Source: Bacteroidota bacterium (GTDB lineage: Bacteria; Bacteroidota; Bacteroidia; 2-12-FULL-35-15). Taken from it: a stretch of 64,000 nt of DNA. Of this stretch, positions 11,913 through 55,231 are shown one piece after another. The translations under genes and the position numbers were made by a program. Location of the stretch: contig JAOQAE010000007.1 of the NCBI GenBank assembly GCA_025963725.1, positions 248,001 through 312,000 of the forward strand, read 5' to 3'. The notes under the pieces were generated by a model. The model was given only the letters and a program-made list of their open reading frames with translations. It did no database searches and was not told the origin of the DNA. Each line of letters begins with the position of its first letter. Within the stretch, counting starts at the first letter, position 1.

Positions 11913-12031
11913 ACCACCCCAGCCCTCCTAAGAGGAGGGAGCGCATACTGCTAACTATATCGTTATTCTTTGCCAGTATATTCTCGCTTGCACCATGCAT
12001 TCCCCTCCTCCCAGGAGGGGTCAGGGGTGGT
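11913..12031. repeat. MITE-like 119-bp element with palindromic GC-rich ends
   Basis: The ends form an inverted repeat (ACCACCCC...CCCTCCT against AGGAGGGGTCAGGGGTGGT), and each end is itself a small hairpin (CCCTCC/GGAGGG). The AT-richer core shares a block (TTATTCTTT...TCTCGCTTGCAC) with the element at 47248-47447. It has no coding capacity. It fills the gap between the ATL gene and trmB. Confidence 0.75.
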
Positions 12032-47163: not shown

Positions 47164-47205
47164 CTGTTCTGTTAAATTCTATTGCTTAGCTTTTTTCGGA
47201 GCGCT
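47164..47205. other. Short spacer with no feature
   Basis: The 42 bp between the dihydroorotase start and the first palindrome show no clear promoter. Together with the repeats that follow they make up the 317-bp gene-free stretch ahead of the DUF559 gene. Confidence 0.4.
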
Positions 47206-47447
47206 CCCCCTCCTTCCAGGAGGGGGCAGGGGTGGTAGCTGCTCTGTACCACCCCGACCCTCCTAAAAGGAGGGAGCACATCCTGCTATACTAAATCATT
47301 ATTCTTTACCAATATGTTCTCGCTTGCACGATCTATTCCCCTCCTAAAAGGAGGAAGCACATCCTGCTATACTAAATCATTATTCTTTACCAATATGTCT
47401 CGCTTGCACAATGCGTTCCCCTCCTCCCAGGAGGGGTTAGGGGTGGT
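47206..47447. repeat. Cluster of GC-rich palindromic elements
   Basis: A solo end lies at 47206-47236 (CCCCCTCC...AGGGGTGGT). A longer element spans 47248-47447 with ends ACCACCCC and GGGGTGGT. It contains an 81-bp direct duplication (units begin 47258 and 47339), each unit carrying a CCTCCTAAAAGGAGG hairpin and the core also found at 11913-12031. It ends 33 bp from the DUF559 gene. Confidence 0.8.
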
Positions 47448-47480
47448 GGCGCTGTACCTACTGCAAAAATCATGATTATC

Positions 47481-47849
47481 TTATTTATTAAACTCTTTCC
47501 TGATCAGATTCAAAACTCTTTCAATATCCTCAAACACTTCTGCATTTTTGAATCTTAAAACCTTCACGCCTTTGCTTTCCAAATACCTCTCACGCCTCGC
47601 ATCGTGCTTCAGCATTTCCTCCTCTTCATGTATCTCTCCATCCACCTCTACCGCTAAATTATATTGATAAGTATAAAAGTCTACAATGTATGGGCCGATA
47701 CTTTGCTGTCTTCTGAATTTAACTCCATCAAGCTGGCTCTTCTGCAGGAACTTCCACAAATGAACTTCTGTACGCGTAGCATTATTACGAAGTTTTTTCC
47801 TGTAATACTTTAAAGAAGGCAGATTATTTATATTCTCTACTGCTGTCAT
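47481..47849 (-). CDS. DUF559 family endonuclease-like protein
   Basis: 122 residues, a complete DUF559 (PD-(D/E)XK nuclease-like) domain. The order is LRNNATRTEVHLWKFLQ, then KFRRQQSIGPYIVDFY, then AVEVDGEIHEE and VKVLRFKNAEV; the candidate catalytic residues are the Asp of IVDF and the Glu and Asp of VEVDG. The family is related to Vsr-type repair nucleases. The start overlaps the stop of the GT2 gene (ATGA). It sits beside a palindromic cluster and resembles the domain inserted into acs. Confidence 0.85.
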   Translation of the reverse strand: MTAVENINNLPSLKYYRKKLRNNATRTEVHLWKFLQKSQLDGVKFRRQQSIGPYIVDFYTYQYNLAVEVDGEIHEEEEMLKHDARRERYLESKGVKVLRFKNAEVFEDIERVLNLIRKEFNK

Positions 47850-52894: not shown

Positions 52895-55231
52895 TTATAA
52901 GGCACCGTTCTTAATATCCTCTACCACTCCCGGATCAAGCAATGTAGAGGTATCGCCCAAATTATTCATATCGCCTTCGGCAACTTTCCGCAGGATCCTC
53001 CGCATGATCTTTCCGCTGCGTGTTTTCGGCAGGCCGCTTACCACCTGGATCTTATCGGGCTTCGCAATTGGCCCGATCAGCTTTACCACCTCTGCAAGGA
53101 TCTCTTTTCGCAGCATCTCCACATCCTTGTTCTTATTGGTGGAGATCACATACGCATAAATGCCTTGTCCTTTTATATCATGCGGATATCCGACCACTGC
53201 CGACTCCACAATGTCAATATGCATGTTGATCGCGCTTTCCACTTCCGCTGTCCCGATGCGATGCCCGCTTACGTTCATCACATCATCGACACGGCCGGTG
53301 ATGCGGTAATAGCCGTCCTCATCGCGCTTGCATCCGTCCCCTGTAAAATACAACCCGGGATAAGTGGCAAAATAATTTTGCTTGCAGCGCTCGTGATCGC
53401 CATACGTGGTACGGATGATCGAAGGCCATGGAAATTTAATGCAGAGGTTTCCTTCCACTCCGTTTCCCGTGATCTCCTTTCCTTTGTCATCCACCAGTAA
53501 GGGCTGAATCCCGGGCAGCGGAAGTGTTGCGAAGCTTGGTTTTGTTTTGGTGATCCCCGCAAGTGGTGAAATTAAGATCCCGCCTGTTTCGGTCTGCCAC
53601 CAGGTATCCACGATCGGGCATTTTCCTTTACCGATATTTTCGTTGTACCAGTTCCATGCTTCTTCGTTGATAGGCTCGCCCACGCTTCCGAGCACCTTCA
53701 GCGAATCCAGCTTGTATGGCTTTACGAAATCCAGCCCTGCGGCTTCAAGCGCACGGATCGCGGTAGGCGCCGTGTAAAAGGTATTCACTTTATATTTATC
53801 GATCACCTGCCAGAAACGGCCTGCATCGGGGAATGTAGGCACACCTTCGAACAATACCGATGTGGCGCCCGCAAGAAGCGGCGCATATACAATGTAGGAA
53901 TGGCCGGTGATCCAGCCGATATCCGCCGTGCACCAATAGACCCCTCCCCGACCCTCCCCAGAGGGGAGGGAGGTGTTGCGATCAATTATCTTTGGCTTTC
54001 CATCTAATTTGGTTGTGATTTTTTTTATAACCGCGTCTATATCACCAATTACTTCTTCATTCCTAAATCTGATAACTTCGAAACCCTGCTCCTCAAGAAA
54101 TGTTGTTCTTAAGTCATCTTCCTCAATTTGATGATCGTGTATATCTCCGTCAACCTCGATTACCAGCATCTTATCAAGGCAAACGAAATCCACGATAAAT
54201 TGACCTATAATATGTTGCCTTCTAATGTGATATCCCGCATTATGTCTCCGAACCGATTGCCACAATGCATCTTCTGCACGCGTAGGATTTTGTCGCATGC
54301 GTTTAGCCTTTTCTTTCAATACCTTAAATATCATTGCATTTTTTGCAGTATGATATTGGGGAGCAGCTCCCTCCCCTCTGGGGAGGGTCAGGGAGGGGTA
54401 CTGGAAGACATTCTCGAAGCTGTAATGCATAAACACCATGTACCCGCCGCAGGTATGCACCACGCCTTTGGGCTTGCCGGTGGAGCCGGAAGTGTAAAGG
54501 ATGAACAGCATGTCCTCCGCATCCATTATTTCTGCCGGGCAATCCGCCGATGCTTTTTCCATCTCTTCCTTCCATAGCACATCTCTTCCATCGGCCATCT
54601 GAACGGCTGTGTTTGTTCGTGTTAGCACTATCACCTTTTTCACCGAAGGACAAACCTCCAGCGCTTCATCCACTACTGCCTTCATCGGGATCACCTTGGC
54701 AGCGCGGTATGCGCCATCGCTGGTGATCACTATATTGCAGCCGCAATCCTGGATGCGGCCTGATAACGCCGTGGCGGAAAAGCCGCCGAACACCACCGAA
54801 TGCACCGCGCCGATGCGCGCGCAGGCAAGCACCGCAATTGCCAGCTCAGGCACCATTGGCATATAGATGCAGATGCGGTCGCCTTTTTTTGCGCCGTTGC
54901 TTTTTAATACATTCGCGAATTTGCAAACCTCTTCATGCAATTGCTGGTAGGTGAGCTGTACGCCTTTTTCAGCCGGATCATTCGGTTCCCAGTGATATGC
55001 AACCTGGTCGCCGCGCTCCGCGAGATGCCTGTCGAGACAATTCTCTGTTATATTGAGCTGTCCGCCTTCGAACCATCTGATCTCCGGCTTTTCAAAATTC
55101 CATTGCAGCACGCTGTCCCATTTTTTCTTCCAGCTGAACTGCTCTGCCTGCTCAGCCCAGAATGCTTCGGGGTTTTCTACGCTTCTCTTGTATTCCCGCT
55201 CGTATTGCTCAAAGGAGGTGATTCTTGCCAT
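52895..55231 (-). CDS. acs: Acetyl-CoA synthetase carrying an in-frame DUF559 nuclease insertion
   Basis: 778 residues from ATG 55231; a -7 element only 2 bp ahead of the earlier ATG (55252) rules that one out. Without residues 279-430 the protein has about 626 residues and fits acetyl-CoA synthetase, which makes acetyl-CoA from acetate, ATP and CoA: YTSGSTGKPKG (246-256), YWCTADIGWITGHSY, DTWWQTETGG, and the C-terminal PKTRSGKIMRR whose Lys is acetylation-regulated. The insertion lies between NVFQY and VYWCTADIGW, where homologues have about four residues (E/K-P-G-D). It holds a complete DUF559 domain with Asp348, Glu359 and Asp361. No stop or frameshift occurs. Whether the enzyme still works is unknown. 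Confidence 0.9.
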   Translation of the reverse strand: MARITSFEQYEREYKRSVENPEAFWAEQAEQFSWKKKWDSVLQWNFEKPEIRWFEGGQLNITENCLDRHLAERGDQVAYHWEPNDPAEKGVQLTYQQLHEEVCKFANVLKSNGAKKGDRICIYMPMVPELAIAVLACARIGAVHSVVFGGFSATALSGRIQDCGCNIVITSDGAYRAAKVIPMKAVVDEALEVCPSVKKVIVLTRTNTAVQMADGRDVLWKEEMEKASADCPAEIMDAEDMLFILYTSGSTGKPKGVVHTCGGYMVFMHYSFENVFQYPSLTLPRGEGAAPQYHTAKNAMIFKVLKEKAKRMRQNPTRAEDALWQSVRRHNAGYHIRRQHIIGQFIVDFVCLDKMLVIEVDGDIHDHQIEEDDLRTTFLEEQGFEVIRFRNEEVIGDIDAVIKKITTKLDGKPKIIDRNTSLPSGEGRGGVYWCTADIGWITGHSYIVYAPLLAGATSVLFEGVPTFPDAGRFWQVIDKYKVNTFYTAPTAIRALEAAGLDFVKPYKLDSLKVLGSVGEPINEEAWNWYNENIGKGKCPIVDTWWQTETGGILISPLAGITKTKPSFATLPLPGIQPLLVDDKGKEITGNGVEGNLCIKFPWPSIIRTTYGDHERCKQNYFATYPGLYFTGDGCKRDEDGYYRITGRVDDVMNVSGHRIGTAEVESAINMHIDIVESAVVGYPHDIKGQGIYAYVISTNKNKDVEMLRKEILAEVVKLIGPIAKPDKIQVVSGLPKTRSGKIMRRILRKVAEGDMNNLGDTSTLLDPGVVEDIKNGAL
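53940..54399 (-). mobile_element. DUF559-bearing palindromic insertion inside acs
   Basis: A 460-bp element bounded by 33-bp inverted repeats (53940-53972 and 54367-54399) with one mismatch. Each repeat folds on itself through CCCTCCCC-AGA-GGGGAGGG. Read on the minus strand it is open throughout; the ends code for PSLTLPRGEG and SLPSGEGRGG and the centre for a DUF559 domain. The flanks show no clear target duplication, and about 12 bp of the ancestral acs sequence seem to be missing. Confidence 0.85.

Follow-up and report, generated by a model that had tools for sequence, protein, structure and literature searches.

DUF559 nucleases and pyrimidine-arm palindromes as probable partners in one bacterial mobile system

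DUF559 nucleases and palindromes with pyrimidine 5' arms very probably constitute one mobile system. The two are associated across phyla, the hairpins form paired inverted ends, hairpin sequence is coupled to nuclease sequence, and the genes co-occur with dispersed copies of the palindromes. Insertion sites are found both filled and empty, and near relatives carry different elements at one and the same site. The first-pass annotation of the window (the whole 64-kb stretch of DNA analysed) had suggested that the nuclease and the palindromes form one system, a suggestion that is supported by the near/far hairpin density around DUF559 genes, the lack of such hairpins at Y1 loci and a copy number that follows the nuclease subtype.

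The DUF559 gene and its palindromes at 47.2 kb

We counted 10 occurrences of the pattern CCTCCN2-10GGAGG in the window, where 0.34 would be expected, and 0 of 100 shuffles reached that number. A free-standing DUF559 gene beside a cluster of palindromes had been reported, and the match to PF04480 and the palindromes located at 47206-47436 establish both as real (Table 1); the spacing claimed between the DUF559 stop codon and the repeat terminus also holds (about 33 bp). The cluster itself is better described as halves of inverted-repeat mini-elements than as lone hairpins. The ATG of the DUF559 gene overlaps the stop codon of an upstream glycosyltransferase gene (237 aa), and four GC-rich hairpins (47206-47448) lie between the DUF559 gene and a downstream dihydroorotase gene (445 aa, NCBIfam PRK09236). 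The unit at 47247-47274 is the far end of the mini-element adjoining the DUF559 gene, while the hairpin at 47339-47355 sits within a tandem duplication of about 80 bp of the mini-element body. The gap from the glycosyltransferase stop to the dihydroorotase start is 683 bp long in this genome and 517 bp long in G009, where it contains a frameshifted DUF559 gene and one mini-element, and it is 22-47 bp in ten sister genomes, including the near relative G028 (35 bp).

Table 1. Coordinates of DUF559 genes, hairpins and elements in the window
Feature	Position	Strand	Evidence
Free-standing DUF559 nuclease gene, 122 aa	47481..47849	-	PF04480 E=5e-33
Hairpin CCCCCTCC-TTCCA-GGAGGGGG, then terminus CAGGGGTGGTA	47206..47226	none	
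Terminus TACCACCCC and hairpin CCCTCC-TAAAA-GGAGGG (hairpin 47258-47274)	47247..47274	none	
Hairpin CCCTCC-TAAAA-GGAGGA, one imperfect outer pair	47339..47355	none	
Hairpin CCCCTCC-TCCCA-GGAGGGG (47418-47436) and terminus GTTAGGGGTGGT, facing the DUF559 gene	47418..47448	none	
Whole filled site, dihydroorotase to glycosyltransferase	47164..47849	none	gap comparison with sister genomes
In-frame DUF559 element within acs	53940..54399	none	empty sites in most sister genomes
Parts of the acs element: terminus ACCCCTCCCC, hairpin, coding part, hairpin, terminus AGGGAGGGGT	hairpins 53952-53970 and 54369-54387		
DUF559 domain of the acs insert, in the acs frame	54005..54319	-	E=3.9e-33
Hairpins of the type-F mini-element 11914-12030	about 11923-11939 and 12003-12019		

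An AlphaFold2 model of the protein encoded at 47481-47849 (pLDDT 89.5) matched 3hrl (NGO0050 of N. gonorrhoeae) with a Z score of 16.6, the homing endonuclease I-Bth0305I (3r3p) with Z 12.9 over 92 residues, and Vsr with Z 10.6. DUF559 and I-Bth0305I are also related at the level of sequence profiles (E 6.6e-6). Across 80 DUF559 sequences, the positions T, E, W, R-Q, D-F, E-x-D-G..H, D and R-F show little or no variation. The likeness to TnsA and Holliday-junction resolvases (Z 6-7) was too weak for use, and the PADLOC matches, all weak (mREase_II, DpdF and a homing endonuclease model), made no case for a defence system.

Hairpins around DUF559 genes within and beyond the genus

Each of the three DUF559 places in this genome (4.79 Mb) has hairpins no more than about 200 bp away, so independent placement of genes and palindromes, for which the first-pass annotation had set a genome-wide neighbour count as the test, failed. 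We extended the comparison to 82 loci (62 from the genus and 20 from the class), 47 loci from other Bacteroidota and 33 from other phyla, comprising Cyanobacteria, Chloroflexota, Nitrospirota, Patescibacteria, Proteobacteria, Acidobacteria and others. Around the 82 loci, the density of GC-rich hairpins per kb fell in successive 200-bp steps from the domain from 3.33 to 0.32 and 0.06 upstream and from 3.20 to 0.39 and 0.27 downstream. When a pyrimidine 5' arm was required, the densities per kb near the domain (within 200 bp) and far from it (beyond 600 bp) were 4.76 and 0.041 for the genus (a ratio of about 116), 3.97 and 0.061 for the class, 4.18 and 0.084 for other Bacteroidota, and 4.59 and 0.131 for other phyla (about 35). 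Such hairpins stand on both sides of DUF559 at 43 of the 62 genus loci and 20 of the 33 loci from other phyla. At 18 of 58 two-sided loci the two flanking hairpins are exact reverse complements of each other, loop included, compared with 1.3% of cross-locus pairs. The more alike two DUF559 sequences are, the more alike are their hairpins (Mantel r=0.56, 0/2000 permutations), and this also holds for pairs at non-homologous sites (r=0.46, 0/2000 permutations).

These flanks bear on another idea, in which DUF559 would act in very-short-patch repair as Vsr does and the hairpins would serve as its terminators or as regulatory stem-loops of another kind. The Vsr fold match speaks for it, as do DUF559 proteins that genetics has identified as Vsr-like repair enzymes, e.g., Caulobacter VsrA (PMC12907096). 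Yet the hairpins lie on both sides as inverted copies of each other, they make up mini-elements that have long terminal repeats and are dispersed over the genome, and they are also found within coding genes where the nuclease is in frame, all of which makes this explanation highly improbable. Vsr, NGO0050, E. coli YcjD and Caulobacter VsrA share the family or the fold of the window protein but have been studied or annotated as repair enzymes or enzymes of unknown role, with no link to repeats described. Our literature search, which covered few subscription papers and preprints, returned no paper linking DUF559 with palindromes.

Two distant loci deserve mention. In N. gonorrhoeae, long direct repeats with CTCTCTCCC-TGT-GGGAGAGAG hairpins lie on both sides of a DUF559 gene (locus L379, 1380-2300), and a homologue of its protein is the one crystallised as 3hrl. 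In E. coli K-12 (locus L383, NC_000913.3 1350500-1356500), the GC-rich palindrome CCCTAACCCTCTCCCCAGAGGGGCGAGGGG at 700-745 is 170 bp from ycjD, which encodes a DUF559 protein. E. coli genomes contain it at a median of 19 places. Its size and copy number are like those of BoxC, a repeat of 50-56 bp with 22-32 copies (PMC2267715), and the palindrome is probably the orphan repeat BoxC. Strains without ycjD were considered as clean empty sites, but the one strain examined has an efflux operon at that position, and we therefore make no claim of insertion for E. coli.

The palindromes could also be classical REPs moved by a RAYT (an HUH Y1 transposase), with DUF559 as a bystander. Their general appearance is REP-like, with dispersed hairpins in inverted pairs, and Y1_Tnp genes exist in most genomes of the genus. 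However, we found no pyrimidine-arm hairpin in the 9.2 kb within 200 bp of 23 Y1_Tnp loci, a control that contradicts a RAYT origin. The Y1_Tnp loci of the same genomes carry different palindromes (CGACTCC and CGTAGGGC types), and no Y1_Tnp was detected in G006, G010 and G031, which have full DUF559 elements. We consider a RAYT origin very unlikely. L231, L232, L233 and other Y1_Tnp loci have palindromes of their own, of the TTGCCCC, CGACTCC and CGTAGGGC types, and the genus thus seems to have genuine REP/RAYT systems side by side with that of DUF559.

Dispersed mini-elements and in-frame elements

The genome contains 124 CCCTCCN2-10GGAGGG sites and none of the reversed control pattern. The sites are mainly CCCTCCTNNNAGGAGGG and mainly paired, about 47-90 bp apart, and the dispersed inverted-repeat mini-elements measure 100-180 bp. 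Type F has the layout TACCACCCC-nn-hairpin-AGCTGATCCTGC, followed by a short spacer and an inverted copy. In type G, another family of the genus, the order is ACACACCCCTnn-CCCCTCTCAAGAGGGG-AATTTGnTCCTGC and then inverted, with the outer hairpin edges 118-150 bp apart. A complete type-F mini-element at 11914-12030 of the window adjoins no DUF559 gene, as expected of a dispersed copy.

Among 36 genomes of the genus, type F is found in 119 copies in G000, 25 in G018 and 15 in G009, with 0 in the other 33, and the type-F DUF559 locus is present in exactly these three genomes. Eight genomes have a type-G gene, broken in one and decayed in another, and they contain 12-106 type-G copies; of the genomes in which no type-G gene was detected, G028, G003 and G016 hold 12-17 type-G hairpins and the rest 0-3 (median 0). 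The copy number of type E behaves much as those of F and G do across the 36 genomes. Fisher tests of DUF559 subtype against dispersed copies gave 1.4e-4, 5.5e-6 and 6.4e-4 for types F, G and E, respectively, in tests that ignore relatedness and with counts that also take in the few copies adjoining the gene. In independent contrasts on the species tree, all differing pairs point in the expected direction and none in the opposite one, though they are too few for significance. Type B, known from in-frame metH inserts alone, is hardly dispersed (at most 8 copies), and in-frame forms may therefore not feed mini-elements. A broken third DUF559 gene lies beside type-G hairpins on contig 3 of G000 (71615-71934, L080); this genome retains 72 type-G hairpins alongside the broken gene, so that its type-G family has apparently lost its enzyme.

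The association could instead reflect target choice, DUF559 being a parasite that homes into palindromes already in place and mobilised by another agent. DUF559 shares its fold with a homing endonuclease, and the same codon sites hold single-hairpin or full elements in different genomes. Against this, genomes that lack the matching DUF559 have few dispersed copies or none, which would not be expected of independent repeats, and we judge this explanation unlikely.

The second DUF559 domain of the window lies in acs, and the palindromes at 47.2 kb had been described as mirroring the ends of this insert. The architecture is indeed alike, but the hairpins in acs are of another type, CCCTCCCC-AGA-GGGGAGGG, and the hairpin terminus points away from the nuclease in acs whereas it faces the nuclease at 47.2 kb. 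The two DUF559 domains are about 40% identical and thus belong to separate subfamilies. Shared codon sites of MetH, LeuS, Acs and other genes carry in-frame DUF559 insertions with hairpin ends. The sites are filled in ten of 34 genomes for MetH, in 4 for Acs and in 5 for LeuS, and are empty or nearly so in the others. A single hairpin occupies the shared site by itself in LeuS of G010, G030 and G002 and in MetH of G030, G012, G004 and G034, and remnants are found at shared sites as well, giving full, single-hairpin, remnant and empty states. The MetH site is used by two element types, A and B. At this site G006 (type B) and G031 (type A) have flanks that are 93% identical and inserts with 61% DNA identity, and metH of G015 contains an A element adjoined by an apparent remnant of type B.

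The motif P-G/K-Y-x-T-A precedes the domain in 18 of 32 in-frame inserts under the strict pattern and in none of 48 free-standing genes. We found neither a Hint domain, as an intein would contain, in the Acs insert nor an Rfam intron, as expected of self-splicing, in the window. The AlphaFold2 model of Acs with the insert had a mean pLDDT of 55, too low for interpretation. The acs site of G010 is compatible with a 3-bp GAC duplication, and across sites no consistent target-site duplication could be made out. Further short in-frame hairpin insertions were seen elsewhere in MetH, LeuS and IleRS (L050, L064 and L062, respectively), with peptides like SPSPKERG, PLLWRGARGE and SPTLSQGE.

Proposed mechanism and relation to known systems

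We propose that the DUF559 nuclease would be the trans-acting partner and the palindromes the cis-acting ends of the system, with the mini-elements of 100-180 bp as putative non-autonomous derivatives and the composite elements, in which the gene lies between two hairpin ends as in acs, as putative self-contained forms inserting in-frame. The nuclease may recognise its own hairpin type, as a cruciform or as single strand, and cut or nick at the hairpin or element or at the target, and the break would then be repaired by copying an element, by gene conversion as in homing rather than by cut-and-paste transposition. We give such a mechanism of recognition, cutting and copy repair roughly even chances of being correct. 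Homing-like copying would explain why the same codon sites are used recurrently and why full and single-hairpin versions occur at one site, and it would also explain subtype matching and the dispersed short derivatives. The termini face a free-standing gene but enclose an in-frame one, and no one simple model covers both arrangements.

The comparison with REP sequences and RAYTs drawn in the first-pass annotation stands in its logic and fails for the enzyme, which is not a RAYT, the RAYT-type genes of the same genomes carrying different palindromes. As in REP/RAYT systems, a single-copy enzyme gene is flanked by palindromes in the free-standing case, and many dispersed, often inverted-paired palindrome copies follow the presence of the enzyme in number. 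Unlike a RAYT, DUF559 is a PD-(D/E)XK Vsr-like nuclease and not an HUH Y1 tyrosine transposase; the hairpin arms of its system are pyrimidine/purine, and composite in-frame copies reside inside essential genes. By inspection, GTAG/CGTC is absent from the foot of the hairpins, the units being TACCACCCCnn-hairpin-AGCTGATCC and ACACACCCCTnn-hairpin-AATTTG.

With I-Bth0305I, one of the Vsr-like EDxHD homing endonucleases, the DUF559 elements share fold, sequence similarity and recurrent conserved coding sites, as well as the E, D, H and R core and occupied and empty alleles (metH, acs, leuS and the glycosyltransferase-dihydroorotase gap). They differ in having no intron or intein and in possessing palindromic ends and dispersed non-autonomous derivatives. 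Bacterial MITEs, which are normally assigned to DDE transposases, and BoxC, for which we know of no assigned enzyme, resemble the mini-elements as short inverted-repeat elements in tens of copies, and the mini-elements do have the terminal inverted repeats of DDE-type MITEs. Rickettsia palindromic elements (RPEs) are palindromic repeats located in-frame in protein-coding genes (PMC3733652). Compared by description, they are like the DUF559 elements in their in-frame palindromic insertion. RPEs are not known to carry an enzyme or to have a link to DUF559.

A broader reading, whose parts taken jointly may hold or fail with equal probability, is that these are pan-bacterial mobile elements whose sole driver is a Vsr-like DUF559 nuclease acting on pyrimidine/purine hairpins. 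Free-standing genes would feed REPIN-like populations of mini-elements and composites would home in-frame into conserved codons of essential genes, where the insert would be translated as an extra domain without splicing; the class would include well-known orphan repeats, E. coli BoxC among them. On our best reading, the new element is an enzyme type previously not known for REP/RAYT-like or homing-like mobile systems. We do not rank the system as categorically new because its mechanism is inferred and both halves of its logic have known parallels. The DUF559 family is common and lacks a settled general role, and hairpin repeats with no known mover are found in many bacterial genomes. A tight one-to-one link, if true, would provide a function for both, extend REP-like systems to a second type of enzyme and account for the odd additional domains that lie in-frame within core enzymes such as MetH, LeuS and Acs.
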